Positions 12,975 through 63,940 of a stretch of 64,000 nucleotides of DNA are shown one piece after another. The position numbers and the translations under genes are program-made. Source of the stretch: Sialis fuliginosa (lineage: Eukaryota; Arthropoda; Insecta; Megaloptera; Sialidae); the NCBI GenBank assembly GCA_961205875.1, contig OY540812.1:17298001-17362000 (forward strand), given 5' to 3'. Position 1 is the first letter of the stretch. Every line of letters begins with the position of its first letter. Under the pieces are notes generated by a model that was not told the DNA's origin, did not search any database, and saw only the letters and a program-made list of their open reading frames with translations.

Positions 12975-13140
12975 AATAATTAAATGGTCACTGATATTCT
13001 TCTGTAGGCTTTCGTGGCCGTTGTCCATAGTAGCTAACTTTTCAGGCTGTTGTCCACGTTGTCGTATTTTTCTTACACTTGACGTTTCGACTCTCATGTC
13101 GGAGTCTTCTAATATTATTTTTATTTTAGACAGATAAATG
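12975..13140 (-). repeat. Retroelement-end-like repeat with hammerhead-like core
   Basis: On the + strand the block runs CTTCTGTAGGCTTTCGTGGC, TTGTCCATAGTAGCTAAC, GGCTGTTGTCCACGTTGTCG and then TTGACGTTTCGACTCTCATG. On the minus strand the core at 13112-13079 is TTAGAAGA, a 5-bp stem GACTC/GAGTC closing an 8-nt loop, then GAAACGTC. This spacing matches the class of arthropod repeats reading CTGAAGATGACC..GGTCGAAACGTC. I associate these with Penelope-like element ends, but that is inference. No coding sequence is attached. Confidence 0.5.
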
Positions 13141-13440
13141 TGATTAAAATTCGTAACACCATCTATTTTGGTATTAACATATATTATATCTACGATATTA
13201 CGATCATCCTTCCCTCTTTTCTATGCAAATAGCGTTTTTTAATATTTTTTTATTTAAAAAAGTATATTCCTTATTTTACTATCGAAAACCTTTATTTTTC
13301 GTGTAAACTTAAAAATTATTATTAATTTTATTATAGAGGATCTTTTTCGTAATTCACTTCAAAAATATTAGTAATTTTATTGAAGGACCTTATTTTTAAT
13401 TTTTGAAGTCATTGTTTCTTATTTTTTATATACAATATAT

Positions 13441-14212
13441 TTTTTTAATTGTGGACCCCTATATCGCGGGCCCCGAGTAGGGCATACAAAAACCCGAAAA
13501 ATTTACAAATCCCGGTTTTAGGTTTTTCATAAAGTGAAAAACCGGTTAACCGGTTTTTAGTCGGGTTTTTCAATTATGTTTAAAAAATGTTTTAAACTAT
13601 TTAAAAAAAATAATAAATTATTATTTGGGGGAAGGCTCTAGCCTAAAAATAAAAGTCAGTGAATGGTATATTTACGTATTTAAATTATTAATTGAATGGC
13701 CGAAAAAAAGCCTGGCCAAGAAAAAAATTCTTATGGGGTCCGCCAACAATTCCAATCTAGGGGTTCGTGATAGTATGTGGAGGCCATAATTGCAGCTATA
13801 GCAAATATATTTTGTATTATAATACATTATATTATATTGAAATAAATTATTTATTTATTTTCATCTCAAATGCGGAATTTACAATCTGAAATTGATTAGT
13901 CTAAATTTGAACTTGAAATGGTATAATGTCCTTTATTAACATATTATTATACACTTGATGAATAACCCTCAAATTCCATTTACTTCGCTATAATATTTTT
14001 ATTTACACATTACGCGTTAGTTTTAGAATTTAAATAAATTCACAACATAAATACTTCATGAATAACAGTAAAAAAAAAATTATTTGTCATTTAAAGAATC
14101 AAAAAAATTTTGGTAAATTTTAACAAAAAACCGGTTAACCGGTTTCGGTTAAAACCGGTTTGTATGCCCTAGCCCCGAGGCGACTACTTCCACAACCCGC
14201 CACTGGATATAA
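13441..14212 (-). repeat. 'CAGTGGCGG..GGGGCCCGCGATATAGGGG' repeat, split by a hAT insertion
   Basis: With 13478-14171 and one target copy removed, the minus strand reads CCAGTGGCGGGTTGTGG, AAGTAGTCGCCTCGGGGC, CCGCGATATAGGGGTCCAC, then an A-rich tail. This is the familiar arthropod type of repeat with a CAGTGGCGG start, a GGGGCCC middle and an A-rich 3' end. It predates the insertion inside it. Whether it moves by retroposition or as a DNA element cannot be told here. Confidence 0.5.
13470..14179. mobile_element. Non-autonomous hAT element with 8-bp target duplication
   Basis: The element is 13478-14171 (694 bp). Its ends are TAGGGCATACAAA and TTTGTATGCCCTA, a perfect 13-bp inverted pair. GCCCCGAG lies immediately outside both ends (13470-13477 and 14172-14179), an exact 8-bp target duplication, the hAT hallmark. 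Subterminal palindromes AAACCGGTTAACCGGTTT occur near both ends, probably transposase binding repeats. The interior has no transposase. Intact ends and duplication argue for a relatively recent insertion. Confidence 0.9.
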
Positions 14213-14222
14213 GACTTCACAA

Positions 14223-14400
14223 TTATAGATGCAAATATTCTGAAACCACCACGACCACTCCACCACTGTTGAATTGCTGCCCCAACATGAAGGCACACCT
14301 TCTGTAACAAAGATTTCCATCAAGACTTGACCGAGCACGCGCGAGCCGCTGCCGGGCATAGCTCATTGTGTGTATGTGTGAGTGTAATTAACTGACACCC
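14223..14400 (-). promoter_or_regulatory. Candidate minus-strand promoter / first exon
   Basis: On the minus strand a GC box-like GGGAGGGGGCGG at about 14410 is followed by GTCAGTTAAT, which fits the arthropod initiator TCAGT, and then CACACAATGAGC. From ATG at 14366 a 47-codon frame begins MSYARQRLARARSSLDGN and ends at 14223; a second frame from ATG 14359 starts MPGSGSRVLGQVLMEIF. CpG-rich composition ends at about 14330. The valine-rich end of the first frame looks non-coding, and splicing may occur earlier (AAG|GTGTGC at about 14297). No protein is recognised; repeat debris is an equal alternative. Confidence 0.25.
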
Positions 14401-14412
14401 ACTCGTAAAATC

Positions 14413-15180
14413 CGCCCCCTCCCAACGAATTGTTTTAAGAAACGTGATGTATATTAATTACGGTGTTTTGATTGATAGGATGTTAGAAAAATATGCACTT
14501 ATGAATTGAGGTGCCGTTAGATTTTAGTATATTGGGCGTAAGATACACCTGTAAGATCTTTAGGCTTCTGCGGTGATCTTTTGATGAAACTATACTTATT
14601 TTCTAGGTTCATGTTTGAGATGTTGATAGAAAGATAGTTGTTCTCAATATTTTTGCGGACCGTCTTCATTGTAGAAAAGATGAACCGCATAAAAATATTA
14701 AAACACATTTTTATAAAAACATAATAAAATTAATACTTGAAAAAACAGACACAAAAAAGTTATTGTTTAAAATATTTAATTTTGAAGTTTTGTGTATGGA
14801 TTTATATGGAATATGGAAACGCTGATTCAAATTTATAATTTAAAATAAATTATGAACATAATAATAATCAATTTGAGAAGATTTAATTCATTTATAATTG
14901 TTTTGCATTTAATACCAACATATAAACCTTAGAATTTGACACAGAGATATTACCAGATACCCACCTAAAAAAAAAAAATTCCTAATAGTTATTTTTCTTA
15001 CTTGTTAAATGTTATGTTTGTATTTTTTTTTGTACTCAGGTAGAACAGTTAATCGAGACAAATATTTCAAGAAAAAAAATTCATATAAATATGTATTCGG
15101 AAATTCTTCGTGAGGGATATCAGATCCCTAAAGATTTAGGCTAAAATAAGTTTTAATTTAATATTTTGAGAACCCATTGT
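14413..15180. other. AT-rich non-coding, nothing recognised
   Basis: No supported gene or repeat. The short minus-strand frame near 14517-14708 has no supporting features. Confidence 0.4.
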
Positions 15181-15311
15181 GATAAAATTTGTGTTTGTTT
15201 TAATCTGTAACGAAAAGATCGAGTGAAAATTTTGAAATCGAAGAATTTTTTTTTTCTCTTTAAGAGAAAGAAACGATCGCAACGCTTCTCGTATCTTCGA
15301 TAATGAAGCAA
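15181..15311 (-). repeat. Repeat family A, copy 2 (fragment)
   Basis: Minus strand: a TTGCTTCATTATCGAAGATA start followed by CGAGAAGCGTTGCGATCG, ATTTCAAAATTTT, CTTTTCGTTACAG and AAACAAACAC. This is the left 130 bp of the same repeat as 16739-17545, diverged. Confidence 0.55.
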
Positions 15312-15534
15312 CTCTTAACAAAGATGCAACACATTTTATTCATTATAGAATAAAAATCACAAGTGCTATGAAAAACTAAAATGTTTGTTTGTCGAGGCGA
15401 CAGCCAAAACTCTCGAACTCGAGTGCAATATTAAATTCAAGTCAAGTAAGCTTTGGAAAAAAGAATGGTTGATGTTTGAAATTTTTATATTTATTAAAAT
15501 TCTTTGCTTATTTTGTTAATGTATAACAGCAATG

Positions 15535-15610
15535 CCGTCTTTAGGGAGGGAGGCTGAGCGACCGCTCGGGGTGCCAGTTCAGAAGGGGCGGCGGACGGCC
15601 ACAATAGATT
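15535..15610. repeat. Short GC-rich repeat terminus
   Basis: ATGCCGTCTTTAGGGAGGGA, GACCGCTCGGGGTGCC and GGGGCGGCGGACGGCC stand out in AT-rich sequence and have the form of the 5' end of common arthropod repeats. There is no second copy here, so the family is unassigned. Confidence 0.3.
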
Positions 15611-16738
15611 TATGACGGATTAATAACAGTTAATTTATTATTTATATTATAAATTTCTTAGTTTTCAAATTTTGGCAGCAGCTTACCTACTTGACCTTTG
15701 AAGAATCTATATTTTTCAAAATACATATAAAAAATTATTCTAAATACATTTATTTTATTTGCTACTAAATTAAAAAATATTTTTAACTAAAGTTGTTTTC
15801 AACTTTTAAGAGGATTTAACCGTTTTAATTTTTAATGGACTCATCTAAATATGTGTGTATGATGTATATGCCATTTGTAATATATATGTAAAAAAAAATT
15901 GTTCTATATCACAGGCGTATAAAGTCGTTTTATTTAGTGTGTTACTGTCTATACATGATTTATTGAACAAAAAAATTAAGTAAATTTATTGACAAAATAA
16001 TTTAAATCTGAATAGTATTAATTTAGTTGTGGTCTAGTTTATACAATCAACTGAATTCGGTATATTTTCATATACAAAAGAATTATAATAAAAACAGCAA
16101 ATTGACCTTCTTTTTACAATCACACAATTGATGTAAATCACATTTCTGTAACCAGCATGTGACATGAACGAAATAGAGCAGTGAATTTGTTGAAAGTAGG
16201 ACTAATGCATTTTTCAAAACCGTATTTTTGTAAAAAAAGAAAAACGTACCCATTTATAAATAATTATTTGATAACTTGATCGATCCTAACAATATATTAT
16301 TATCATAATATTATTAAATTCTTTAATCTTTTTTGCTAGCTATATTTTCACTTTCAAGTAATTTAACGATAATAACATCTTTATAAAATGTTTTGCAGCG
16401 GAATTTTAAATAATAACAGCATGTATTATATTTCTAAGAACAGAGAACAAAACACTATAATGTGTGTATTAAATAACTTGTAATTTATTTACAATTACAA
16501 ATATTATACGTAAGATAATATGTGATAAGTACCCAATTTCAAACTGACCTTCGTATATACAAATATAATAATTCTAGTTTTCTACTACCCACGTGTAATA
16601 CTTACATCATCAAAAAATAAACTACCATCTAAAATTTTATACTGCGTTTAATTAAAACAAACACTTTTGAAAGAGTGTGTGTAATATATTTTTAATAAAT
16701 ATACAAGATGTTTAAAAAATTAACCTCATTTATTTCTT
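15611..16738. other. AT-rich non-coding, nothing recognised
   Basis: No supported features apart from A/T runs. Confidence 0.4.
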
Positions 16739-17545
16739 ATGTTGCTTCCACGCAATATCGAAGATACGAGAAGCTTTGTGATCGTTTTAGATTGGGACAA
16801 AAAAAATGTTCTCCGATTTCAAAATTTTAAATTTATCTTTCCGTTTCACGTCAAGACAAACACTTTTTGTTACGTGTCTGTCTGTCTGTCCGTCCGTGTG
16901 TCCGTCTGTCCCCTGAATCCGCATAACTCATAAACCACTGAACCGATATTGTTGAAACTTTGTCAGATGGTTGGGTCTGGCTTGAGGACGGTCGCATTTC
17001 ATCAAATCATCAAAATCGTGAGTAAGGGGGAGGGGTGACACTCCAAAATATTAAATTTTTCAAGATATCTCAAGAACGACACATGTTACGTGAAAATTTT
17101 ATAGAATATTTTTTGTAGAGCATTAAATTTCCTATAATATGGGTCTACAACGTTTGTTACAAAAATTTATCTCAATTTATTTTAAAAATTCGTGTTTTGT
17201 TTTTCTAAATTGATATTTGCTTGGACATATTAAATGTCATTTTGACGTTTTAAATGTCATTTTGGCGTTTTAAATGTCATTTTCACATTTGCATAAATTT
17301 AGATTTAGATTGAAATTGCAAAAAATTAAAAATATATAAAAAAATATTCAGGTGCGTTTTAAGAAAAACTAATATTTTTTAGTAAAATTGTATAAAAATA
17401 AAATGGTTAACCAACTCCAGGCAATTTATATAAACACTATCGGTTTTTATTTAAATTGTTGAATAATTAACTACCTTTGGTGAATTTAGCACGAGAGAGC
17501 ACTGTGCATTTACTTGACAAATGTTTTTTATACCATTTGATGTCA
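16739..17545 (+). repeat. Repeat family A, copy 3 (longest)
   Basis: The most complete copy: GCTTCCACGCAATATCGAAG, a (CTGT/CCGT)n tract at 16877-16915, the CATAAACCACTGAACCG block, GTTGGGTCTGGCTTGAGGAC, an interior absent from copy 1, and the end shared with copy 1 (TAATTAACTACCTTTGGTG, GCACTGTGCATTTACTTG). No protein is encoded; the 64-codon frame at its start is incidental. The copies at 7306 (+), 15181 (-) and 39701 (-) are truncated relatives. Confidence 0.65.
17231..17290. repeat. 20-bp tandem repeat, three units
   Basis: Three consecutive units starting TAAATGTCATTTT, differing only in the last seven bases (GACGTTT, GGCGTTT, CACATTT). They lie inside repeat A copy 3 and are missing from copy 1. 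Confidence 0.8.
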
Positions 17546-18185
17546 GTAGAAATAAAAAATACAGCTGCAGATCAATTTTAATTCTTCGGATCCAGCTTGA
17601 TTTATTCGTTGAAGATTTAAATTGTTAGTAAAAATATGTGATGCGACAATATTGTAAGACCTAGGAACATATCTTATCCCACCGCTAATTACAGACTCAT
17701 CAACTCACAGAGTTATCAAAATTCAACCAAAGAGAGGGATATGATGTTAATTTTTTTATTTCCTGTATCCAAATAAATGTTTATATTATTATAAAGGTTT
17801 TTAATTAATTTATAATTGTTATATAAAACTTATTTTATCCAGAATAAAATCTAGTATAAGTTCTAGTTCTAACATTTTTCAGACACTCTGTACGTGTGAA
17901 GTATTCCTACATAAATATTAATTTATATATGCGCGGTATTCATAAGCTTGCTGATTAACATAACTGGATAACGCTCATCGATTTGCGTTCTTGATACCAT
18001 TGGCGGATTCATTGGGACCAAATCGGGCTGTAGGATTCCACGTAGAGTAAAGTGAAGCATAATTCCCGGTTCCATAAATAAGAATTAAAGTATACTTATT
18101 TGATTAGTAATTAATTTATGTTTAATTATCGATAAAAAATTGTATACTAAAATATTAACTCTTGGATTTGTTTTACATCTACCAG
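17546..18185. other. Non-coding, nothing recognised
   Basis: A slightly GC-richer stretch at about 17930-18070 has no frame longer than chance. Confidence 0.4.
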
Positions 18186-18292
18186 GACTCGAAAAAGAAT
18201 ATTTTACGATCAAAATTATTCAAAGAACAACAACAACCGATAAAACAAAAAATAGATAGGCATCTTGTGTACGGACCCAAACCATATTTTCA
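18186..18292 (+). CDS. Low-confidence exon-like open segment
   Basis: A T-rich tract ending CTACCAG is followed by 35 open codons beginning DSKKNILRSKLFKEQQQPIK and including DRHLVYGPKPYF. The frame stops at TAA, or could splice at CA|GTAATT. The residue mix is protein-like, but the donor is weak and the phase does not join to 18874-18949. No family is recognised. A remnant of a transposon protein is as likely as a host exon. Confidence 0.15.
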
Positions 18293-18873
18293 GTAATTTC
18301 ATGAACAGAAGAATCGGCACATTCCGAGCATAGGATGATAATAGGATTGGATGGGAACATATTTTTTAAGTATATGTATGTACATAATCAGATATTAGCT
18401 CATATAAAAAAACAAAAATTTACACTAAAGAATAGAGCACTGTTATTATCATTTTCACAAGTTTATGAAAATCGACCACATCTGGTATTCGACATCATTT
18501 TATCAATGGATGATTCCATAATATATGAAATGAATGTACTATCTTAACCTATCCATTTTATCTTTGACCATATTTAGTTTATATCAAAATATTTCTTTAG
18601 TTTGATAATATAACATTTAGTACCGTAAAAATATTCTTCAAAACCCATTAAAGTGAGAAATAGTTTATAAATAATAATAAATCTTTATTAATTAAAATTT
18701 GTATAAAACTATAAAAAACTTTTAATTTTTTTAAAAGAAATTGTTGACATGCCAAAATAAAATAATTTTTAAAAGTTTATAAGTGATATTAAACATAAAA
18801 GCATGTGTCGTATAATTATGTTTCTCTTAAAATAATATGTATTAGTCGAGCCTCTCTCATATATTCTTCACAG

Positions 18874-18949
18874 GCGCTACTGATTTGTCCGATACCATCG
18901 TACTTTCTTTGTGCGAAAGTCTTCACGCCCGCGGCCTCGGCGAGTGTGT
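18874..18949 (+). CDS. Candidate internal exon (76 bp) with good splice sites
   Basis: CTCTCATATATTCTTCACAG is a strong acceptor and GT|GTGAGT at 18950 a near-perfect donor. Between them one frame reads ATDLSDTIVLSLCESLHARG then LGEC, with no stop, and uses GC-ending codons unlike the surroundings. Frame 1 is also open and reads ALLICPIPSYFLCAKVF; frame 2 stops at once. The CpG-rich sequence continues to about 19020, past the donor. The product is not recognised and no flanking exon is identified, so it may equally be a non-coding 5' exon. Confidence 0.3.
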
Positions 18950-19741
18950 GTGAGTTACTGGCGTCGGTTTAAGGCCGTCGCGACGTCCGGCACGCACCCA
19001 CTCACCCCCGCATCAAGGTTGTGCAATAAAAAACAAGCACATGAAGGACGTATCCAAATTGTAATGGTAATTGTTAAAATAATGTGTTTTTGTTACATAT
19101 CATTAAATGTTTTTATATATTTATACACTTGTATGGTATTTTATATACCTTTGTTTTAGTTTTTACGGTCTATATTTAAATCAAATTTGATTAGTCCTTG
19201 GCTATAGTTGAATTATTATTTTTTTTTTTTGATATCGTTGAAGTTTTATTTCGGGGTTCTTAAAGTATAAGATACCTTTCTTAGCAAATATTGTAGCAAT
19301 TCATTTGTTTTATATATTATGATAAAATTAATAATTAAAAAAAAATTTTGATGGTTATAAAACAGGGTCGGCTTGTAGAAGTGGTCTTTTTGGGAACAAT
19401 TTATTTAAGAAAATGAATGGTTTCATTAAGTACTGGTCGTTTAAGGATGATGTTCATGTTTAAATTTACCTTGTCCTTAATTAGAGATGACCTATAGAAA
19501 TATACTATTTATATTTTGTAGTGCAATCTATAAAATCGACAAAACAAATTAATTCTACAAAATTTCAAATTATTCAATTTTTTTTTTTGAAAAATAATTG
19601 TATGAAAAACAACACAGTTTATTTTTGAAGTTAATTTGTTTTTATAAATACTTGTAAATAACTTATTCAGGATGGCCACAATAAAATGCAATCTACATAA
19701 ATACAAGCAGGTATGTAAGTTGAAATGTAGAAAAACCTCTC
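18950..19741. other. Non-coding between exon candidate and TTAA element
   Basis: The first 70 bp remain CpG-rich (AAGGCCGTCGCGACGTCCGG), then AT-rich sequence follows. CAGGGTCGGCTTGTAG at about 19365 looks like a single terminus of a common repeat. Confidence 0.35.
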
Positions 19742-20465
19742 TTAAGGGGGTTGACCACTTTTGACAGCCGAAAATAAGCGAATTTTAAAGATTTTTTGTG
19801 TCGAAACTATTGATTCTACATAATTAAAATTTTTTGTTAATTTTATTACATCTATTAATTTTCAAAAACATTTTTTTTAAATTAAAAATGGCGACTGTAC
19901 GATCTTGCTTCAGAAACAGTTGCTACCTGAGTTGTTCCACTACAAGCATCCTAGCGTCTGCTGCATTGATCGGTAACATCAAAAACAAGAAATATTAAAT
20001 TTTTAAGACTCTCACCTTCTACGCGAATTTAAAAAAACTAAAGAAAAGTGAAAATTCTAAAAATGGTACGTGTTTGAAAAAAAAACGATTTTTTATGAAA
20101 TTTTTACTATATTTGTTAATGAAAAAGTAGTTTTTTTTTTTAAATAAATTTCAAAGAACTTTAGGTTCACATAGGACATAGAAGGTAATATTATCTATTA
20201 GTGTGCAAAACTTCAAAATGATCGATCAAATAGTTTTTGAGTTATCTTACATGAGGTTAATAAAGTTGTTTTCAGAAAAACGCATTTAATGTTTCAAAAC
20301 TCAAATGTTAGAGTTGATAACTCAGTAGCGTTCACAGACTATAACTTCAAAAGAGGTGTAAATTTCGGTTTAAAATTTTAGGACGATATTCTACACATGT
20401 TCGACAAAAAATGTATGCAAAAAAATATGATATTTTTGAAAGTTTTATAGTGGTTTCCCCCTTAA
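19742..20465. mobile_element. TTAA-flanked non-autonomous element, 716 bp
   Basis: TTAA|GGGGGTTGACCACTTTT at 19742 is mirrored by ATAGTGGTTTCCCCC|TTAA ending at 20465. The inverted ends share GGGGG..ACCACT with mismatches, and TTAA borders both. The interior contains sentence-like non-coding phrases typical of these repeats ('gatcaaatagtttttgagtt') and no long frame. A piggyBac-type mechanism is inferred from TTAA only. Confidence 0.6.
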
Positions 20466-20701
20466 GGTATAAAATCGATTTTTACCCCCATGTCCTCTCA
20501 CTATGCATTATAATGTTTGAATTGATAAAGTTAAAATATTTTTAATTAAAAATATCACCCTCTTCGTATTTATACATATATAAACCAAAAATCATCAAAT
20601 AATTTTTTAGTTAAATAAAATTTTGAACGAGTTTTTAAACAGTATCATGACAATAATGTTAAACATTTAATAGAATTTTAGATTGCAGCTTAATAATTTA
20701 C

Positions 20702-21182
20702 CTAACCCTAGACCGGTTCTTCATTTTACCATATTAAAAAAAGCCATTGGAACTATAGTATAGGTATTTAATATGAAATTATATAGAAAAACAAGTAATA
20801 CATATTATGTAAAAATGTTAATATTTGCTATTATTATTCTAGTATTTTTGATACAATTAATGCAAATTGTTCGATTTTTGCTAACAAAATTAATGATGAA
20901 ATTAGTAATGTCAAATCACTTATATAAACAGAGTAAATCAACACATTTACAATAAAATTCATTTGAATTAATATTATTTGAATCATATTATCAAAATGGA
21001 CCTGAAATTCCTCTTTAGTAAAAAAAAATTGTAACCCTTTTGAAAATATTTTTAGTAAATTAAAATTCTACAATGAAGTACACACTGACAACAAATAGGT
21101 AAATCCGGTTAACCGTTTTTGAAATCAGATGTTAAAGTAACGTTATGGGTCCAAATGGACCCAAGGTCCGGTCTAGGGTTAA
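20702..21182. mobile_element. piggyBac-type MITE, CCCTAGACCGG ends
   Basis: Left CCCTAGACCGGTTCTT at 20706 and right CCGGTCTAGGG ending at 21178 form perfect 11-bp inverted ends. The right flank is TTAA and the left flank CTAA, one change from TTAA. TTAA followed by CCCTAGA is close to the canonical piggyBac terminus, which makes this the best-supported piggyBac assignment in the window. The 60-codon frame inside (20773-20955) is not recognisable as transposase. Confidence 0.65.
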
Positions 21183-21229
21183 AACCAGTTGAAATACACG
21201 AGCAAAAAAAAATGTCGCGAACCGTGTAG

Positions 21230-30655: not shown

Positions 30656-30950
30656 TAACACAGCTACACAAAAAAAGTGCGGAGCCAAAAAACCGTCCTA
30701 TATATAGTATTCATCGAGCATAGTCGAAATCCAAATTTTTGGAATTTTCTGCATCCCAGTTTTTTTTTATTTGAGCATGAATTTTGGATTTGGTTGAATT
30801 TTCCAGGTTGGTTAAACCCAAAATTCAAACTAAAAAAAAACTGATAAGCAGAAAATTCCAAAAATTTGGATTTCGACTATGCTCGACCAATATTACAATG
30901 CTATTTAGATCGCTATTTTGGCTCCGCCCTTTTTTTGTGTAGCTGTGTAA
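30656..30950. mobile_element. Snap-back MITE with TAA duplication (289 bp)
   Basis: The element is 30659-30947, with CACAGCTACACAAAAAAAG and its complement CTTTTTTTGTGTAGCTGTG at the ends and GGAGCCAAAA shared inside. TAA flanks both sides, as for PIF/Harbinger-type elements, whose target is TWA. A second, nested inverted pair, TCGAGCATAGTCGAAATCC with AATTTTTGGAATTTTC, fills most of the inside, so the whole element can fold back. The 65-codon frames on both strands are symmetrical by-products of this palindrome. Confidence 0.75.
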
Positions 30951-38366: not shown

Positions 38367-39700
38367 ATAAAAATACATAACACCAGAGCCGCATTTGAAT
38401 AAGATAAAGGAGACAGATGCCTGCGGCCCGATTTAAAGTTATTTTCTTGGACCATTTTAAATTAATGTTTATTTTACTTATACATACTTATATGCTTTAT
38501 TAAAATTAATTGCTTTTATTTTTATGAATACTGATTAAAATGTTATTATGTTGAAGCAAATAACACCTAAATGCTATTTTGCATTATGTACATATTATGT
38601 ATCTTAGGGTGTGTCAAAAAAAATATTGTGAAGTGAAAAATACAAAGGAAAACTAAAATGTAATAATTGCCTTCTAATAGTATTAAATGTAGATAATCCC
38701 GTAGCTATGAGTGAATTAATTAATAAAAATGTTTAGATTTTTGTTGTTTTTATTTATTTTTATAAATGTCACAGCTATTTCGGAACAAAATTCAAGAGGG
38801 AGTATATTTCAATAACAATATATTTTCTATTAAATGTAAATTAGCGAAAAGAAATAATTTGGGCTTATGTCTGACTGATGTCATAAAATGCAAATTTCTC
38901 GAGTGGGTGTATTTGGTATATTTCAAAATGCGACAGGTTCGAATATTTACGTAACGGTTCCGATAATGCATTGACTTTATCTACACCAGTCCTGACTTCA
39001 CAAGCAACAAGTCGTGACTTTCGTTTTTTTCCGTCAAATATTTTAATAGCCGCTATACTGGAGCTACTGTCTTTGTGTACGTTTTGAGTACAATAGATAT
39101 TTTATATATGTGTTATATCGGTATGTACATTGTTGTAAGCATCTAGGTTTCTTGGTTTGTGTTTATTTTATTGATTATAGTTGATATTTTTTGGCTATTA
39201 TGAATTGTTAGTTAACAGATTAAAAAATTATTTTATGAAATAATATTTTGACGTGAAAAAATGAGATTCTGAGTTGTGCATCCTTACAGTTTCCAATATT
39301 TTATTTTATATTCTTCAGTACCTCTTCGGCAAGACTATAAGCTACTAAATATTTCCAGTATCTATGGTACGAAAAAGCTATTAAAATCGATAGCTGTCAA
39401 TGAAATGCTTGTTTTTTAGAAAAATGTATTATCAGTGAAATTTTATTTCATACTATTTGATTTTTAGGGTTCTGTCAAAATGGAAACTCTACTAGTGAAG
39501 TTCTTATACGCGTTTGTCCGCAACATAAATCAAAAATTAATTTTGAATTTACATATATGTAAAATTGCCTGTTCATTCTTTAATTCATTATTTGCTGCGA
39601 TTTAATATGTACGTAAAAAAATTCTTAATGCACAGATTGTCAAAATGCGCATCTTGTTGAGCTGATTTAAAAACGAACACATATTAGGTACACCATTAAA
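38367..39700. other. Non-coding, nothing recognised
   Basis: GAGCCGCATTTGAATAAG with GCGGCCCGATTT at about 38390-38435 looks like a common-repeat terminus. The rest is AT-rich. Confidence 0.35.
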
Positions 39701-46145: not shown

Positions 46146-46303
46146 GTAAGAGATTTATTATAGCGACATATAAATACCCATTAATGTACTTACAGTGTTC
46201 TATAGGGTTTTCAGAAACGTGTATACATTTATTGTTTTCTTTAGTTGAATGATTGTTAATGTATCAAAAACTATAGGTTTTTAAATGTTAAGTAAATATG
46301 GTA

Positions 46304-46418
46304 TATCTTGACTTCTGGGTGTAAGTCGCGTCGTTTTGTTTATTTCAGCTAATGTATGACGAAACGTTAGCTGAGATAACGACCAAAAAGACTTGGCTTA
46401 CATCCAGAATTCACGATT
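46304..46418. repeat. Palindromic repeat family H, truncated copy
   Basis: Left ATCTTGACTTCTGGGTGTAA and right (reversed) ATCGTGAATTCTGGATGTAA start arms of about 50 bp that meet at TGTATGACGAAACG. The arm phrase (CTGGG-taag-CGCGTCG-TTTTG-TCAGCTAACGTT) is the same as in the palindrome at 63733-63940. The central hammerhead-like part is mostly lost here, leaving ACGAAACGTTAGC. A 63-codon frame starting within it is incidental. Confidence 0.6.
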
Positions 46419-46785
46419 TACTTCAAAATCAAAGCAGAAGCCTGAACTTAATTATTCATTTTCTAGTTAATTTTTTTAAAGATATTTACTGCAATATACT
46501 ACTATGTTATATCAAAATGTTAATAAATATAAAAACTTACTAGAAATACAATTTATTTACATGGTTTATTTTTTTTAGGAAATTATCAGAATATCGGAAA
46601 CTGGACTTTTTTTGTACATTATACCTTAGGGCCTTAGGCCAATGTGGAATTTAAAATTTGTGTTGGTGTACTAAACATAGCAATCAACAAATATTTCTTG
46701 ACCACCATACGAATTTTTGATTTGAGATAAAATATATTTACTTCATTTTTGATCGTAGAATTTCGCGGTTATTCAATTGTATAAA

Positions 46786-46978
46786 TTTTTTATTATTGGG
46801 TTTTATTTCGCGTCGCACTTTAACGTCACTTGACGTTTTGATCAACAGCTCGTGGTCTTCTTCAGAAGTGAAGTGTCGGGTCCAGAAGGTGTAGCTGCTT
46901 AAATAAGCGTTGGTGTTTGCTAGAATGTTTGTTAAGTGACATTAAAGTGCAACGCGGAATTAAACCCGATAATAAAAA
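46786..46978. mobile_element. Inverted-end element with hammerhead-like core (193 bp)
   Basis: TTTTTATTATTGGGTTTTAT and, from the right, TTTTTATTATCGGGTTTAAT start arms of about 46 bp that continue through CGCGTYGCACTTTAAYGTCACTT. Just inside the left arm, the minus strand reads CTGAAGAAGACC, a loop, GATCAAAACGTCAAG, a variant of the CTGAAGAAGACC..GGTCGAAACGTC motif. Non-coding. Confidence 0.65.
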
Positions 46979-49139
46979 CTTTATGCATTTATTTAATGTT
47001 TATTTTTATTATAGAGATGATAATTAAATCCAGATAACAATGAATTATTTATAGAACATTACTTTCTACTATATTGCCACAGTATTATAAAAAAATCTCA
47101 ACTTCAAATTCCAGAAAACTTAAAAAGCTATTATTTGATAATTTTTGTTATCATGCTTCTTTGATGTCATGATGAAAACATCTAATAAAAACAATTTATA
47201 CAATTATTTTTAAGATAACTTTATACTTAAACTTTTTACACCTGTAACGCAATGTGAGGTATTGGTAATATACAGGCAGTATTTTAAAGTTCTGTTTGCG
47301 CATTTGCAATAAATGAATTGATCCTTATATGATACTTGTTTGTAAGTAGTAAAACTAAGAATTACAGCCTACTATGATAGCAATAACCTAAGAAGTACGT
47401 CGTTAAATCTCAGGGTTTTACGCCACCCACACTACAGAAGTTACGGACAAATACTATTCTGCATGTTATGATATTATTATACTGCATTATAGATCCGTTT
47501 ATTTCACAATATGTTATGTATCTACGAGTATAACACTTAATAAATTATACTTCATGGTACATACTTAGGATAAAAATATAAATCAATATGAGCTTGTGTG
47601 CATGAAAACGCTTAACCGAAAAGGGAAATAATCATGAGTTTATTTGAAATTGTGTAATATCAGAATTATTACAGTTCAAAGCATATAGGATGCATATTTG
47701 CAATACTAATGAGAAATAAATGGGGTTCTAACTTCTGCTTTGATATCTATGAGTACCTACTATGAAACGATTAAGAAAAAAAGTCGAATATATACAATAT
47801 ACATGTGTATTTAATAATACCATGGTATAAATGTCTATATAAAATAATAATATCGTTTTCAAATATTTTTTATGTTTGACTATAATGTAAAATCTACCTG
47901 ATATTTTTGGTATCAGCATTAAATTCTTACGTGGTTTGTCCTTTAAGTTTTTTTTTTGGTGGCATATAATGTAAATAACGCTTCATTATTAAAATTAAGA
48001 TACCAATATTAAACATAATTCTATATCTCTTCATAAAGTTAAATATATATAAATATATATGCCCTTTATATAATGAGAAATATTAATTTGCTAACCATTA
48101 ATATTTCAATTAAGAAATATAAATTAAATTACTATTGATGAGTTTATATTTATGGTGCTTCTAAGAAGAAATGTCTTGCAAGGTTCCCTTTTAATTTGTA
48201 GTCATCAAAACTCAAAGTATATAATGAAGATATTTTACCTTAATTAAGTATAATTAGTTATGAATAATATTTATAATTACCTATAATTCAAACGGTTTTA
48301 CTATTTATGCTGAAGGTTTCCTAGCCTTTTAGGTAAAATTATTGACTATTTATAGATTATTGATTTTGTGAAAATAGAATGAAAAAATGTAAACAATTCT
48401 TATGTGTACCTATATGTACCTATGTATTCATATATATATGTTATACATGTATATTAATTTCTTATAAATATTTATACCTATGAATGCATTGAAATTTTCT
48501 TTCATTTTTATTCCCCAATTTTTATCTTTCTAATAATATTTTTTAATTAAAAATTTTAATATATCTTTATGAAAGTATTAATTAGCCCAATAATTTAATA
48601 TATCAACTCCATGATAGCAAAAAGATAACTAAGAACTATTCAATACCGAAATTTATCGGAAAAAACATGAAACAACTTTTGGTGAAAATCAATACTGGTA
48701 TTCTTATTAAAATATTTAATAATTTTTTTTATTATGTTAACATTTTTGAAAGTCAAAAATACAAAATAGATTTAAAAGTACATTATATACATTGTACTAC
48801 GAAGTGTGGACGAATTGATGTATCCAATATAGGTATTTTTAATTCTATTTTGTATTTATTTGTATATATGTATTATACAATAAAACATTATTATTTTTTG
48901 TATTAAATACTTACTACTGTCTCAGTAAATATATTAAAAAAAAAGATCTTTATATGTTTTAATTTTTAATAAAGTATTTATTTTTCGGATCTTGTCAGAC
49001 GAGACAATAATTTTATAAGAACACGAATGATTTATCTTATTCTCATGATTACGAGGCTTTTAAGATTGCCTTTAAAATGTTTTGTTGTAGACGAGATATC
49101 ATTTAAAAAATCATCTCAGGATTAATGACGCTAGACTAT
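46979..49139. other. AT-rich non-coding, nothing recognised
   Basis: 2.2 kb without a supported feature; A/T simple sequence and TACCTATATGTACC-type microsatellite remnants near 48405-48450. Confidence 0.4.
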
Positions 49140-56019: not shown

Positions 56020-57776
56020 GTGGAGTCATATAACCGAAATTTTTTTTTTAATAAAACAATCTCCCCCTACAGCGATTTTATGATTTTAAAATGTTCTAGG
56101 GATCAAGAGAAGTTCATAACTGAGTTTGTGGATTAATCCGTTTTCCGCGCGGTACTTTTTTCACGACTTTTCCGGAAATTCATCGATTTTTCCTGTTTGC
56201 GGTTTGATTTTTCGCAAATATCTCCGCTTCTACTTAATACTCGTAAAGAACTCCTCTATCGATCTGTGGGAGGCGGAATACTATAACTTAATTTATAACC
56301 TCAAAAAAAATTACAAACTGCGCATATAACAGATTTTTTATTTTTTCTCAATTACTTAGCAACAAGTATGAATATTTTGATGAAAATAAGGAAAAATGTA
56401 CCTCTTATGATCCTTAATAAACCTACCAAGTTTGATTCCTAAATATTCAAAATTGCCGCCAAAATTTATATTTTCAAAAAAAAATTGATTGACGCGCCAT
56501 CTTTGGGCAAACCATCGTAGAGCAAATTTTTTTATCTCAAATTGTAGGGTATTTTATGCCCTTTTAAATGATGTATATATACTTACCCATACATTCTAAA
56601 ACAAAAAAGTTATTAAGATTTTTCTGAACTGATTTTTGCTTTTTCGGATTGTTGCCGTAAATACATTTTTCCCGCTTAACTTTCATTATTGTTCAAAACA
56701 AATTACAAAATTTAAAATCTAGTTAAAAGATGAGTGTTTGAAACAAATTTAACATATTTTTACTATATTAATTAGTAGGTCACCCCAAAAATTCAGAAAT
56801 TTTAAAATTTCACCCGCACAAATTAATCAGTTTTTGTTGTTGGAAATATATTTTATTTGCAATTTAATTTTTAGTAACGAGAAATTTTTTTTTATTAAAT
56901 TCAAAGTTATTTATTAGAACAACATAAAATTACAGACGAATACTCAAAATATATATGTATTTTAACCGAGCCTCATAAACTGATTAATTTGTGCGGGTGA
57001 AATTTTAAAATTTCTGAATTTTTGAGGTGACCTACTAATTAATATAGTAAAAATATGTTAAATTTGTTTCAAACACTCATCTTTTAACTAGATTTTAAAT
57101 TTTGTAATTTGTTTTGAACAATAATGAAAGTTAAGCGGGAAAAATGTATTTACGGCAACAATCCGAAAAAGCAAAAATCAGTTCAGAAAAATCTTAATAA
57201 CTTTTTTGTTTTAGAATGTATGGGTAAGTATATATACATCATTTAAAAGGGCATAAAATACCCTACAATTTGCTCTACGATGGTTTGCCCAAAGATGGCG
57301 CGTCAATCAATTTTTTTTTGAAAATATAAATTTTGGCGGCAATTTTGAATATTTAGGAATCAAACTTGGTAGGTTTATTAAGGATCATAAGAGGTACATT
57401 TTTCCTTATTTTCATCAAAATATTCATACTTGTTGCTAAGTAATTGAGAAAAAATAAAAAATCTGTTATATGCGCAGTTTGTAATTTTTTTTGAGGTTAT
57501 AAATTAAGTTATAGTATTCCGCCTCCCACAGATCGATAGAGGAGTTCTTTACGAGTATTAAGTAGAAGCGGAGATATTTGCGAAAAATCAAACCGCAAAC
57601 AGGAAAAATCGATGAATTTCCGGAAAAGTCGTGAAAAAAGTACCGCGCGGAAAACGGATTAATCCATAAACTCAGTTATGAACTTCTCTTGATCCCTAGA
57701 ACATTTTAAAATCATAAAATCGCTGTAGGGAGAGATTGTTTTATTAAAAAAAAATTTCGGTTATATGACTCCACTA
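56018..57776. mobile_element. 1755-bp near-perfect palindromic element with TA at both ends
   Basis: The element is 56020-57774. Ends are GTGGAGTCATATAACCGAAA and TTTCGGTTATATGACTCCAC, with TA immediately outside each. Left arm 56020-56833 (about 814 bp) and right arm 56978-57774 (about 797 bp) are inverted copies differing by a 14-bp insertion at about 56527-56545 and a handful of substitutions. The 144-bp middle is unique and AT-rich. No arm encodes a recognisable protein; the 67-codon frame at 56126 is repeated inverted on the right. TA targets suggest Tc1/mariner-type mobilisation of a foldback element. The arm identity implies recent origin or ongoing gene conversion between arms. Confidence 0.9.
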
Positions 57777-59001
57777 TATGTACTTCTAGATTCTACTAGT
57801 ATATTCCAAAAATGTATTGAAATGGTAGTTAACCAATAATCTAGCCTTATATTTCAAAAAAATCTATAATAAATAGTAATCTAAACATCCTGGTTTGGTT
57901 TTTGTGTTAATTATGAATAAATAATTAGCTAGCTAATAATTATGAAAGTATTCAAGTATTTATTCATGCTTATACAAAGAAAATTCACAGAAGAGGTCAT
58001 TGAAGTATTGATCATTTTTTATTTTATATTTAATATCTTCTTAGAATAAGTGTGTTTCTTATAAACAAATTTAGTTTATCGTTTTATATTATATACAGGT
58101 ATAAGTCCAGGGTGAGTAAAAAATATGGAATATAGCTTATATTTTCTAAAATATTCATTATTTAAAAAAATGTTTTAGTAAAAGTTTTTAGAGAAATTAT
58201 TTCCTATGTAATGTTTACGTTGCTATGGCATTCAACACTATTTTTTTAAATGATAACATAACATTTTATTGATTTTATGAATAGATCTTATTTTTTGCAT
58301 ACAACCCTGTAAAATTTTAATAAAATTGCAAACGAAAAATTTTGAGAAAAATTTAATTTTATAATTTCATCTCACATTAACTACAACTTAGTTAACCAAG
58401 TAAGCTTTGAAAAATGACTGAAACTTGTAATGTATCAAAAAAGAATAATTTATATTATTTTTATACCAATTCAAATAGATCCGTGTATTGCATATTTAAT
58501 GCTAATAATAAATGAAAACTTAAAAATCATTTGCATATAAAAAAATTAAAAATTGTATACAAAAATGCAAGAAAAAATAAATATTATTTTTGTTGATAAA
58601 TTTAACGTTTATTAGTTGTCTCACATACGAATTGCTATTAAATTTAAATTGTTATCAAGTTTACAACAGCAAGTAAAATACTGTTGGATTTTTTAAACTT
58701 GTTTTTACTTATAAGGTAGCATGCTACTTTTATTATTATTTTTTTAGTATCACCTCTTCAAAAATAAATACATACATATTAAAAATACAACTTGTTTAAA
58801 AAATGTTCATGTAATTTTATAAAAAAAAAAAAAAAACAACTATGATGTCATTGTATATTATTACATTATTTTAATTTTTTTCTACAAACATATGTTAAGG
58901 TTTAATATAATTATTCATAAACTATGGGAACAATAAGCATAACATATAATGCACCTGGATAGAGAATCAATACATAATGTAGAGTTGTAAATACTAGAAG
59001 A
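57777..59001. other. AT-rich non-coding, nothing recognised
   Basis: No supported gene or repeat; a pure A run lies at about 58822. Confidence 0.4.
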
Positions 59002-59443
59002 TAAGATAGTGGCACCAGTTATGGCCGCTAGGTTTACTGTTTTTGTGATTGACGTAACTATTTATTCAATTTAATTACCAAAGTCCGCAAATATAGTCTT
59101 TTTATAGCCTTTTATTTTGTTTATGTTTTTTCTCCAGTAATGGATAGAGTAAAACCAGTAATGATCACGCAGTGATGGACACTTGTTAATGATAACAAAA
59201 TGATAAGTACTACGACACAAATGATATGAAAGAAAGTATCGTCAAATTTGAAACAATGTAAAGCAGTTGCTATGATAAAATTATAATTAATAAATAAATT
59301 ATACTAATAATTAGTTTAAATGTCCACCATTTTGACTGCTACAGTTAAATGTATATTCAGAATTGGTAGTACTCAAATATCAACAAATGTTTCTAATTCA
59401 GTAGGTATATTTAATTTAAAAAAATACTGGTGCCATTACCTTA
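59002..59443. mobile_element. TA-flanked MITE family M1, copy 2 (438 bp)
   Basis: The element is 59004-59441 with TA outside both ends. Left end AGATAGTGGCACCAGTTATG, right end ACTGGTGCCATTACCT. It aligns with copy 1 through GTTTACTG, TCCGCAAATATAGT, TAAAACCAGTAATG, GATAAGTACTAC, AACAATGTAAAGCAGTTGCT and TTTAAATGTCCACCATTTTG, and lacks about 110 bp relative to it in several small gaps. Confidence 0.75.
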
Positions 59444-61520
59444 GTTGTAAATAGATATATAGATGAAATAGTTTACCCATTGCCAAATAAATGTCCTCAA
59501 TAAATTTAAAAAACTAGCCTAAATCAGTTAATGGAAATTTTGAAAGCCATTACCAAATATTTCAACAAAACCGATAAATAATTTATTTACTCTCGAAAAA
59601 CAACGGTTGTAATGAATTATGTCAACGTAAAGTTTTCATGTCAATTAAAAACAGAAACCGTGTACAAAAATATATACAAATAATTTATTCATCAGTGGCG
59701 TACAGCGAAGCAGAGAAATGAAGTTATTGTGATTACTCTAAATATGTTTTCGGGTTTTCTATTTATTTTTAGTGTCTGTATGTTTGTTTCTACGTTCATA
59801 TGTGTATATATGCAACATTTTTTGTTTGACGATATCTCGAAAGCTGATTAATAGATTTTTATGCGTTTTTTGTACGATTTCTCTATCTAAAATAGATCTG
59901 ATTAGTTATAGAATAACAAAGTTGTTTGTAATTCCTTTTTTACGAATCTTCTTGTATAACTACAGTTGCTGTAGTTCTATAAAATATATATAATCCTCAG
60001 TTTTTTATTTTTGATTTGTGTTTACTCTTTGTAAAAGAGCTAATTTTAATCTTATTTGATTCTGTTATAACGAGGTAAAACCCTCAATGAAATATAAAAA
60101 AAACATCCTTCGACATATTAAAAAAAATCTCTTTCTTTAAAATTAAAAGTACTGGATATTTCTGATGTCTATAAACTGAAATTTTGATACTTGTCGTTCT
60201 TATCTGTACAAATTTTTATATTATTTACGCTTTTACGCCTATGATATTTATCCATTATGTATATGCGAAATCAAGGTCACAGTGAAAACGTCAGGTATGA
60301 AAAAACCGCCATACAAAAACAGATAACAAATTTCATCGCTGATTGTTATTAATTACATTTGCCTTATCTGATGTAATGATTGTTTATAATTGACTGAATA
60401 TCAATAGTCAAAACAAATGGTTCTTTTTAACAAGAAATTCTAAAGTCATTGAATGATGATAATCATGTTTTTTTCTTTATTCTACTGAATAATTTAATAA
60501 ATGTAATTTATGAGGACTGATTGAATAGCTTTTTTAATTTTTTAAATTTGAATTCTGCTAATTACATAGATTTTTTTTGGACATAAATGTTTATATAATA
60601 TTATTTCCACGCAATTTAAACTAATGTTTCATCTTCGTTATCAACGATTTTAGTAGATTAAATATGTAGCCTTTATAATATATTTTATAATAAGTATAAT
60701 ATTAGTGTATAATAAAAAAAAAGCTACAACCACAATTTTTATACAGAGAAAAAATATTGTAAATGGTACGGTATAGAAGTAAGATTAGGTATACCGAAAA
60801 AATTGTAGGAATATAAATTCTTAAAAATCTTGATTAAAAAATGTATTTATACATTTCTTGTACATGAGTATAAAAAAGTAAAATTTAATAAAATAATGTG
60901 CAACTTTCTATGTATAGAATTCGATATGCATTTATTATAATTATTGATTGATTTCGATTAGTTTACTATTACTGCACAATATAGGTCATTTCAGTAATAT
61001 CATATGCCAGGTCGAGTAAATAACAACAAAAGAGGAGATGCTCATTCAAGAGATCAGCCCACTATATTATATATGATTTGATCACGCTCTTTTGTTTTTT
61101 CTACTGAGTATTTATTGTGTATGACGTTAGGGTAATGCCTTTTGAATACATTAAGCACTGTCAATTAATCAAAATATTGAAGTAGGCGATGAAATATCTC
61201 TCTTTTGACACTCGAGAAGGCGTAATGAATGCGAATTTTTTGCAATTTTGTATATCCGATGTGGAAGAGAATGTAAAATATTTGTAAAATGGAGAGCTAT
61301 GAGGTTTGAAATATTCTGATTTTTTCTTTTAAGTACCGTTTTATGGATTATACCGCAGGCCTAGGTTATTGCAGTATTTCCAATACATTAATTAAATGTT
61401 ATTTATTTTAAAAATTGAAAAGTGATTGAAAAATTTGTAATTTTTTTTGTAATATATCAATTTGTATAGTCTGTGCCAATCTTTTTACAGGTAATATATA
61501 TTTACAGGTATAATATATGT
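59444..61520. other. AT-rich non-coding, nothing recognised
   Basis: CAGTGGCGTACAGCG at 59695 is a repeat terminus; 'gacgatatctcgaaagctga' at about 59829 is a common insect repeat phrase. A 25-codon frame starting MPGRVNNNKRGDAHSRDQ at about 61006 is too short to call. Confidence 0.35.
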
Positions 61521-61521
61521 A

Positions 61522-61638
61522 TTTTTGGGAGAATTGACTTAGATACAGGAATTCATTCTATATAATATCTATCTAATATCTAGATTCTAGATATTATCTA
61601 GAATGTTTTTCTGTATCTAAGTCAATTCTCCCAAAAAA
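61522..61638. repeat. Hairpin repeat with 27-bp arms
   Basis: TTTTTGGGAGAATTGACTTA, continuing GATACAG (61522-61548), is the exact complement of 61611-61637. Between them lies a second palindrome around CTAGATTCTAGATATTATCTAG. CACTTACACCACTATGGC-type sequence follows directly, a phrase of another common repeat. Probably a tiny snap-back MITE. Confidence 0.75.
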
Positions 61639-62996
61639 GTGACTTACACCACTATGGCTTTCACCCCTTCATATATATTAAAAAAAAAACTGATAATGTT
61701 TTACAGTTTTTTCTGTATGTTCCTACTTGACACGAAAACTACTGAACTGATTTTGATGGAACTTGAAAACCGAAGACATCATGATGAGGCATGATTGAAT
61801 TAAAGCAGGCCTGTATTAATTTACAAATAAATATATGTATATATAAATTACAAGAAAAATCAAAGAAAGTTGTGATATCGATATAATTAAACCAAAAATT
61901 TATATATATATCGGATAACTATAAAGGCTCATAATATATTTAGAAATAATAAGTCACAATTCATATTTTATAATAATATGTTAAGAGAGTACACATTTTA
62001 ATTTTGAAATAAACGAGAGGAACTTCGAAAAAAAATTTTAAAAATTAAATATATTTTTTTAATACATATCTTTATCTTTATATTTGCGATTATAAAGTCT
62101 ACTGCGAATTAAAGTTATGATATAATATAAACTACTTTTCTAATAATAGAAAAAAATCACTACAAAACAAAGAAAATGTATGCATATTGATATTATACGT
62201 ACCTACGTGGTTATTTTTAACATAGATTTAGTGATAAGTAAGTACTAAATATGGTAAGGTGATATAAAAATAAACATTTCTATTTTGTATTTAGTATAAT
62301 ATGTAATCGTTGTTATATTTTTAGATTTCACTTGTACTTATATAATAATGTTTGTATGGTAGGAATTAAATCTCAATTATATTATTATTATTAATTTGGC
62401 GAACTTTCCACTAATATTTAAATATAATCATCTTGATATATCTAGAATTAAGTAGGTAATATCTTATTGGTTGTATACATACAAACTTTAGGTACTCATT
62501 GTCAGTAATATATAGAATGTCTTTTTGACAATGTTAGACTTAAAAATAGGTAATATAAATCATTCAAATCTATAAAAGTATTGCATTAATATCCATGAAC
62601 AAAAACAGTCGCTTTTTTTCAAAAACATGAATGCTGTTTTAATTATTCAAAGTAATAAATCTTCATTATGTTTTATTTTTTGTAGTAATTAATTTCAATA
62701 AAGCAAATTATGTTTGTCTTATATTTTAGCCAATAGATATATTAACGTTTAATGAATAAAGTAATAAAGATATCCAAATTTAATTTAAAGGTCAAAACAC
62801 ATTATAAAAAATAAGGAAGTAACTACTTGTGGTGTATAATTAGAGTATTTGAAAAATTTTATATTGAATTTAAAGTGATATTAATTTATTGTATAATTTA
62901 TTGGTAATATTTGTTTGTTAGTTTCCAACAGAAATGGAAACAAATAACAAATAAAAGAATATTAACAAACAACAGACAAAAACTATGGTTATGACA
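61639..62996. other. AT-rich non-coding
   Basis: 'aaactactgaactgattttg' at about 61738 is again the family-A-like phrase on its own. No gene. Confidence 0.4.
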
Positions 62997-63189
62997 TATC
63001 AAATACAAATCCCCTAACCATAAAAATTGTAAGAGTTTAGACTTACACGCGTTTTAATAGTAATGCTATCATCATCAGAGTCTTAAAGACACTATTTCTT
63101 TAAGACTCTGATGATGATAGCATTGCTATTGAAACACGTGTAAGTCTAAACTCTTACAATTTTTATGGTTAGGGGATTTGTATTTGATA
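62997..63189. repeat. 193-bp near-perfect palindrome with two hammerhead-like cores
   Basis: TATCAAATACAAATCCCCTA on the left is mirrored at the right end, and arms of about 90 bp match with about five differences around a centre at about 63093. The right arm reads CTGATGATGATAGCATTGCT then ATTGAAACACGTGTAAG: a CUGAUGA box, a 5-bp stem ATAGC/GCTAT, and GAAAC followed by the palindrome CACGTG. The left arm carries the same on the minus strand with GAAAC changed to AAAAC. This is the arrangement of a hammerhead core with short stem III. No coding. Confidence 0.75.
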
Positions 63190-63463
63190 AAAGAATATTG
63201 TTTTGTATGATGCAGAACTATCGTTATAATTTTTGAATTATTCCTATTTTCTGAATATGATGATATCATTTCAACAATTATAGTTTCTAGTAATATTTTC
63301 AAACGATTTGAAAAACGTTGTAAATTAAAAAAAAACCATATTGCATGGTCATATTTTGTAATAAAAAAATAGTAAAATCGCGGCAAACGCTATAAAAACT
63401 TTAACGATAAATATTTCATAAGTAGAAACATAAAATAAAAAAGGCGAGGCGAAGGTATGTACA

Positions 63464-63732
63464 ATGTACGCACATATTCGGAACTTGTCATACCTTTTAA
63501 AGGTTAATTGTTTGAATGTTCGTAGGTCGACAATTGGTCGCACCCTTTCGTCGATTGTACGGAGTTTTCTAACTATTTATATCTTTGCTATTTTCCCCCG
63601 TACACAACCGATTTATTGGTGTACCATGTATATTCCGACACGCGATATTCGTTGTGACTTTTTTACACTTCGTAGTGCAAATCTATATAGGTATATATTT
63701 GTGTTATTTATTTACATTGGGAAAGGTTGGAA
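63464..63732 (+). other. GC-richer segment with a 127-codon frame running into a palindrome
   Basis: A frame from ATG 63464 runs to 63847, beginning MYAHIRNLSYLLKVNCLNV. The last third is the palindrome arm at 63733-63822, so the frame is at least partly an artefact. The upstream 270 bp are richer in GC than average (ACAATTGGTCGCACCC, GACACGCGATATTCGTTG) and probably belong to the same repeat. I recognise no protein. It may be the body of the retroelement whose end is the palindrome. Confidence 0.25.
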
Positions 63733-63940
63733 TATGGATTTTGAGGATATAAGCCGCATCGATTTGGTCGTTCTATCGGCCAACGTTTCGTCGCACATGG
63801 CAATGGACATATTCAGGTCTCTATTGAAAGAAAATCACTTTTATTAGAGCCCTGAAGATGTCCACTACAATGTGCGATGGAACGTTGGTTGATAGAACGA
63901 CCAAACCGACGCGGCTTGTCCCCAGAAATCAAGATCCATA
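63733..63940. repeat. Palindromic repeat family H, full copy with hammerhead-like cores
   Basis: The left arm 63733-63822 starts TATGGATTTTGAGG and the right arm 63845-63940, reversed, starts TATGGATCTTGATTTCTGGG. Both share AAGCCGCrTCGrTTTGGTCG, TTCTATC and CCAACGTT. The right arm reads CTGAAGATGTCCACTACAAT then GTGCGATGGAACGTTGG; the left arm, on the minus strand, CTGAATATGTCC..GTGCGACGAAACGTTGG. The 22-bp spacer is AT-rich. The arm phrase is the one at 46304-46418. Confidence 0.7.

Follow-up and report, generated by a model that had tools for sequence, protein, structure and literature searches.

Short inverted repeats in Sialis fuliginosa as probable pseudo-LTR insertions of Penelope-like elements sharing a hammerhead-like core

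RESULTS

We analyzed a 64,000-nucleotide stretch of the Sialis fuliginosa genome (GenBank assembly GCA_961205875.1, contig OY540812.1, positions 17,298,001 to 17,362,000, forward strand; hereafter the window), which holds four kinds of short repeat, F1 to F4, with unrelated flanks and a common core resembling that of the hammerhead ribozyme. These repeats are discussed here as candidate pseudo-long terminal repeats (pLTRs) of Penelope-like elements (PLEs), in comparison with four further families from the genome, F5 to F7 and D. Each of the eight families is represented by one locus, and one representative stretch per family served as the PLE reference for scanning the window; F1 is represented by L060, a short insertion rather than a coding copy. 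F1 and F2 are sister families, as are F3 and D, so the eight families amount to fewer than eight independent cases.

The F1 copy is a single tailed pLTR arm (12997..13110, minus strand) that matches positions 22 to 135 of the 135-position L060 arm at 99%. It is broken off within the core: CTGA is absent, and stem II (GACTC/GAGTC) and GAAACGTC are intact. Sequence inspection and the family-reference scan found no second arm beside it; among 40 other F1 loci that were fetched, 30 have two arms. The F2 copy has a full tailed arm (46747..46925, minus strand; 86% across the whole 183-bp reference) and, from the family-reference scan, a shorter arm without a tail (46935..46990, plus strand), forming an unequal inverted repeat. 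Its core at 46832-46866 (minus strand) keeps CTGAAGA, and its GAAAC has decayed to AAAAC, so that CGAAAC reads CAAAAC.

Both copies near 63 kb are inverted repeats whose arms, 97% (F3) and 80% (F4) complementary, enclose a loop of 7 bases. The F3 left arm carries a tail (62963..63094, minus strand; 97% match), with a pLTR and tail the same as those of a coding element, L079, and the right arm is tail-less (63097..63190, plus strand; 100% match). The right-arm core (63108-63140, plus strand) is intact, with helix I AGACT/AGTCT, an extra base T, stem II GATAGC/GCTATT, stem III ACAC/GTGT, and predicted cleavage after 63142; the left-arm core (63047-63078, minus strand) has AAAAC in place of GAAAC. 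The F4 copy has a tail-less left arm (63750..63830, minus strand; 85% match) and a right arm with a partial tail (63836..63957, plus strand; 86% match, core from 63852), and its cores at 63852-63888 (plus strand) and 63780-63816 (minus strand) are each damaged, reading GGAAC in one and CTGAATA in the other.

A first-pass annotation of this DNA, made from the letters alone, had credited all four cores with a CTGAWGA-like box, a potential stem, and a GAAAC-like end. This description holds for three of them, with damage in F2, in F4, and in the F3 partner arm, but not for 13079-13112 (minus strand), where the family match starts only at core position +4 and the box is missing. The partner cores that it placed at 63 kb are all present, although only 63108-63140 has escaped damage. 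The pattern CTGAWGAN{4,30}GAAAC has 2 exact matches in the window against 0.21 expected, and 1 of 100 shuffles had at least two; one of the two, at 39289, looks unrelated. The motif by itself is weak evidence inside the window, and the case rests on the genome.

Other features of the window were also recorded. An old F4 inverted pair with outward-facing arms, absent from the earlier annotation, lies about 300 bp from the F2 element at 46302..46446 (46302-46338, minus strand, 89%; 46351-46446, plus strand, 76%). Weak F4-arm matches at 8349-8407 and 14557-14580 (E 0.007) are possibly older remnants. A further long imperfect hairpin at 30719-30881 has a subthreshold Rfam microRNA score and is matched by none of the eight PLE references. 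An Rfam scan of the window at gathering thresholds returned nothing, and the below-threshold microRNA families that a lax E-value places on the palindromes were read as hairpin artefacts.

A hammerhead-like core shared by eight families

Across the 392-Mb genome, CTGAWGANN{10,34}CGAAACRY has 4,608 matches, compared to 26 for the reversed control, and CTGATGAN{4,30}CGAAAC has 2,002, compared to 62. Read in order, the core comprises one strand of helix I, the CTGAWGA box, a single base, stem II, GAAA, a palindrome, the cleavage position, and the second strand of helix I, and the elements of a type I hammerhead (CUGANGA, stem II, GAAA, and helix I around the cleavage site) were found in 8 of 8 representatives. 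Judged from its sequence, and under the usual numbering and classification of such cores, it is laid out like a type I hammerhead in which A9 is followed by one extra base (9') before stem II begins. This base is an A in F1 and F2, a T in F3 to F7, and a G in D, where its position is ambiguous (G beside G). In each of the eight families stem III is a palindrome without a loop, reading ACGT or ACACGTGT, which argues that the predicted hammerhead probably acts as a dimer only.

The first-pass annotation had suggested selection on an RNA structure, and the pairing of both helices bears this out. The helix I strands differ between families (CACTT/AAGTG in F1 and F2, AGACT/AGTCT in F3, GCC/GGC in F4, GTAC/GTAC in F5, ACTA/TAGT in F7, and GCTC/GAGT in D), yet 30 of 32 positions pair when each family is given its own strands, compared to a mean of 18.5 when strands are swapped between families; swapped strands attain 30 in 0.02% of 20,000 shuffles, and sliding by 1 to 3 leaves 7 to 13. 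For this comparison the distance from GAAAC to cleavage (3 or 7 nucleotides [nt]) was fixed per family beforehand, the slid controls shifted all families jointly, and G-T was accepted as a pair. Stem II likewise pairs at 30 of 32 positions with one base skipped after CTGAWGA (swapped mean, 19.5), and at 12, 13, and 6 of 32 with 0, 2, and 3 bases skipped. Compensatory change in stem II, proposed earlier as a check, was found within a single family, in L184 and L185, where stem II reads GGGCC/GGCCC in one locus and GGACC/GGTCC in the other, a compensatory change on both strands. In F1, F3, F4, F5, and D, minimum-energy monomer folds retain the greater part of helix I and of stem II.

Coding elements that carry the core

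The F3 pLTR and tail match those of L079, where the element occurs twice in tandem and once more as a partial copy in inverse orientation, and whose 815-amino-acid (aa) frame contains a reverse transcriptase domain (PF00078, 50.6 bits; cutoff, 29.6). An 854-aa frame in family D scores 55.9 bits against the same cutoff. The GIY-YIG domain (PF01541) reaches 22.1 bits in L007 and 18.6 bits in L079, both below the cutoff of 22.6, and is not listed at E 0.01 for L078 or for a 74-aa piece of L066; the GIY-YIG-like frame of L007 stops about 60 nt upstream of a D core. On this sequence evidence F3 is the pLTR of a PLE.

The C termini associated with F1, F2, and F4 were found with the single 74-aa query from L066, which gave 103 matches, the F2- and F4-type matches being about 43 to 58% identical. 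The pLTR follows a coding C terminus in L171 and L172 for F1, in L087, L173, L174, and L188 for F2, and in L175, L176, L177, and L187 for F4. A profile of these C termini aligns best, albeit weakly, to residues 753 to 804 of the F3 protein and 775 to 826 of the D protein, at the extreme C terminus, with domain E values of 0.018 (F3) and 0.008 (D) in a search against three sequences. They resemble Penelope C termini, and this likeness, together with their place before a tailed pLTR and the weak profile match, is why F1, F2, and F4 are likely PLE pLTRs.

Among 30 regions fetched downstream of protein matches, 20 have a core: L163, L164, L165, L167, L169, L171 to L177, L184, L185, L187, L188, and L189, plus L178, L179, and L186, which the stem filter missed and which were found by eye. 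No core was seen in L161, L162, L166 (one unrelated-looking match), L168, L170, L180 to L183, or L190; in L180 to L183 the frame appears to extend beyond the start of the fetched stretch, and the pLTR was not reached. The pLTR copies of L178, L179, and L186, which belong to F5, enter long AT microsatellites shortly past the core. At G000:C10:3223636-3253527, five same-strand matches to the GIY-YIG query lie about 7,367 bp apart, so that a Penelope fragment forms part of a long tandem array.

Arm orientation, tails, and arm ends

Neighboring arms within 3 kb, among the first 100 places listed for each family, face outward in 21 of 21 F3 pairs and 23 of 24 F1 pairs, the remaining one being same-strand. 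Neighboring matches to the GIY-YIG query within 8 kb (145 places out of 152 matches) are outward in 14 cases, same-strand in 6, and inward in 0. The tandem or dimeric copies anticipated in the first-pass annotation are found as direct tandem copies in the coding elements L079 and L080, whereas the short elements are head-to-head.

Two-armed insertions have one tailed and one tail-less arm in 89 of 106 cases (88 of 105 distinct insertions, as L071 and L210 are one); of the rest, 4 have no tail, 13 fit neither pattern, and 0 have two tails. By sample, the one-tail pattern was found in 28 of 38 for F3, 16 of 16 and 13 of 14 for F1, 21 of 25 for F4, and 11 of 13 for F2. The F3 sample comprised 60 of 81 regions, from the first 100 of 685 places, and the unbiased F1 sample 20 of 45 regions, built from the first 57 places in a list of 100 (out of 272); the best-hit samples of F1, F2, and F4 are biased toward complete copies. 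Loci without two scorable arms were excluded (22 of 60 for F3, 4 of 20 and 6 of 20 for F1, 7 of 20 for F2, and 0 of 25 for F4), and five repeat views of the same F4 place (L031 and L047 to L050) were removed beforehand. The tail cutoffs were not identical between scripts, and L127 was scored tail-less, yet tail letters are present beyond an internal deletion. The tail-less arm ends about 30 to 35 nt short of the tailed arm's end.

Flank duplications of at least 9 bp, commonly 12 bp, accompany 24 of 38 F3 insertions, compared to 0.9% for flanks of different loci, and F1 target duplications range from 5 to 16 bp (no control). Arm junctions are variable, with microhomology or filler letters. Minor alleles common to both arms number 6 over 45 insertions, with 62 confined to one arm, and a different-insertion control shares a mean of 0.56 and a maximum of 3 (300 shuffles; L013, L017, L022, and L025 removed as repeats). 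Four of the six shared alleles are one change, and two are absent from all other sampled copies; such sharing is compatible with two RNAs of common source or with a single RNA that served twice. Single arms in L127 and L113 skip stem II or part of the core between short repeats, as if the reverse transcriptase had jumped the hairpin.

Arm ends cluster just upstream of the core. The interval from -17 to -11 holds 43 of 94 F3 ends and 17 of 34 F1 ends, and 86 of 94 F3 arms and 28 of 34 F1 arms pass the predicted cleavage site. F4 arms end mostly 11 to 19 nt upstream of the core; F2 arms reach further, several of them at least 64 nt upstream, which is the clip point of the F2 reference (the F1 reference is clipped at -17). 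The usual arm end starts with the A in TTAGTG (F3) or TCAGTT (F1), which we take to resemble the arthropod initiator, and because of this initiator-like A the usual arm end is probably the RNA 5' end. The idea, taken from L003, that arms end at the hammerhead cleavage site was rejected, as only 2 of 94 F3 arms and 0 of 34 F1 arms end within 2 nt of it. Since most sampled arms were copied through the predicted cleavage site, we infer that the templates that became insertions were mostly uncut.

DISCUSSION

Taken together, the four repeats of the window are very probably short pLTR insertions of four different PLEs, with a hammerhead-like core and with arms produced by priming on both target strands. 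Under this reading, transcription would start at the initiator-like A, which precedes the core by about 15 to 19 nt in F1, F3, and F4, and further upstream in F2; the element's endonuclease would cut both target strands; the reverse transcriptase would use one of two internal start sites for the first target strand and the second site for the opposite strand; and both cDNAs would extend toward the RNA 5' end and be joined. Since these start sites would be close to the 5' end of the mRNA, the insertion would be short and consist of pLTR sequence only. The hammerhead, if it acts at all, would act as a dimer. One cDNA per cut strand is the simplest account of the inverted shape. The first-pass annotation had preferred selection on structure over common descent of the whole element, and that opposition does not stand, as the families look like the same part, the pLTR, of related PLEs whose flanks have diverged.

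Several observations weigh against this reading. Rfam Hammerhead_1 (RF00163) scores only 16.7 bits in L007, under the gathering threshold of 34, and has no match in L002, L058, L061, L067, or the window. Monomer folds lack most of helix I and stem II in F2, F6, and F7, leaving five of eight families, and in F4 to F7 the extra U is paired with G12 in these folds, a pair that would have to open in an active core; a stem III dependent on a partner would lead one to expect weak monomer folds, but they are no proof of that. The 74-aa L066 query has no Pfam match and only a slight likeness to L007 (E 0.002 over 15 residues), and no reverse transcriptase or GIY-YIG domain was seen for F1, F2, or F4 in the C-terminal pieces covered. 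Because arms ending at the cleavage site are rare, cleavage in life is not shown by these copies. Six F3 ends (L112, L113, L128, L135, L136, and L148) coincide at core position +31, 4 nt upstream of the predicted cleavage site; some of these are junction microhomology and one is an internal deletion, and the others lack explanation. Finally, the PLE protein of Poseidon from Anolis carolinensis (PAc) showed no strand difference in start site in vitro (PMC11167929), whereas the copies described here have one of each.

The PAc system nevertheless has much in common with the repeats of Sialis. Its protein cuts and extends both strands and has two internal start sites, one on either side of the tail, and the system shares with the repeats a pLTR, a tail, a hammerhead at the junction of pLTR and frame, and AT-rich targets (PMC11167929). 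Its main substrate in vitro is uncut RNA, and insertion proceeds without need of cleavage, in agreement with the mostly uncut templates proposed here; cleavage itself required the protein in vitro (PMC11167929). Assigning one start site to each arm goes beyond that in vitro report. PAc probably has the same extra U, because its start codon lies at the start of stem II (PMC11167929).

A more tentative idea, which we regard as unlikely, is that the palindromic stem III is an RNA dimerization signal, such that two pLTR RNAs joined as a hammerhead dimer would share one ribonucleoprotein and each be copied from one cut strand, one RNA from the far start site and the other from the near one. If true, this would explain the loopless palindromic stem III in eight families, the twin-cDNA insertions, the occurrence of one tail but never two, the shared rare alleles, and the mostly uncut templates.

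An alternative to the priming step alone is self-priming, in which the cDNA made first, or an antisense RNA, doubles back on itself and serves as primer for its own copy, as has been proposed for rotifer Penelope elements (PMC3846280). Head-to-head palindromes, alleles common to both arms, and microhomology at some junctions would all fit. However, fold-back copying should bring the tail into the second arm, and none of the 106 insertions has two tails while 89 have exactly one; the filler letters at several junctions would also require an extra step. We therefore consider self-priming rather improbable.

Conservation of the core as protein code, with a frame starting inside it and the motif serving as the N terminus, would be compatible with pLTR insertion by dual-strand priming, but as an account of the core it has a low probability. 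In F4 to F7 the extra T, with A9 before it and G10.1 after it, forms an ATG that begins frames of 33 to 72 codons (in the loci used, flanks included), a loop II ATG in F1 and F2 opens frames starting MRVETSS and MLVETSS, and the PAc frame begins at stem II (PMC11167929). Against this, the core ATG at A6 opens just 10 codons in F3 and just 12 in D, yet both keep the core, and helix I lies partly upstream of the core ATGs and covaries. Coding may account for part of the conservation, though hardly so in F3 and D.

Animal retrozymes, small nonautonomous hammerhead elements that spread as circular RNAs, were the comparison made in the first-pass annotation, and they share with these repeats a type I hammerhead and small size and are said to coexist with PLEs (PMC7229834). 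They form direct tandem repeats and circular RNAs (PMC7229834), whereas the short elements here are head-to-head, and the ends of their sampled arms fall at two fixed positions on the outer side and mostly at a single position on the inner side, seldom at the cleavage site; a retrozyme origin is accordingly very unlikely. Foldback miniature inverted-repeat transposable elements (MITEs), nonautonomous DNA transposons moved by a transposase acting on terminal inverted repeats, would likewise be short, palindromic, and numerous with target duplications, but the one-sided tail, the variable duplication lengths and junctions, and the truncated and single-arm copies make them scarcely credible, and the identity of the F3 pLTR with that of the coding PLE L079 rules them out for F3.

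Much of this anatomy has precedents. The pLTR position, minimal form, and dimeric action of PLE hammerheads are known (PMC6155905, PMC7761336, PMC6466107), and the minimal hammerheads of Cervera and de la Pena (2014) and Lunse, Weinberg, and Breaker (2017), as described in reviews, are alike in pLTR position, type I layout, great numbers, a missing or tiny helix III, and dimeric action; the eight families here all carry an extra base before stem II, which may set them apart. A viroid hammerhead core with an extra nucleotide is the subject of a paper cited in PMC6155905. Inverted pLTRs, one-sided tails, and short duplications are also known, from the Penelope elements of Adineta vaga, which have inverted pLTRs, an optional 31-bp tail on one of them, and 8- to 10-bp duplications, and which share the initiator-like sequence and head-to-head order (PMC3846280). 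Those elements differ in their low copy number and in the self-priming model proposed for them, and the word "hammerhead" has 0 occurrences in the text of that paper (PMC3846280). The one-tail rule and the presence of an extra base in all families were not found in the literature searched, outside which the 2014 and 2017 papers fall.

These findings provide a reading of more than 100 natural insertions for the start and stop of reverse transcription, and they point to uncut RNA as the usual template, to two start sites used one per arm, and to an extra base and a palindromic stem III that are kept across families. The points concerning start site, template, and core are testable in the existing purified PAc system. 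The pLTR anatomy also accounts for short palindromic repeats that score below threshold as microRNA precursors in Rfam and are liable to pass as MITEs.

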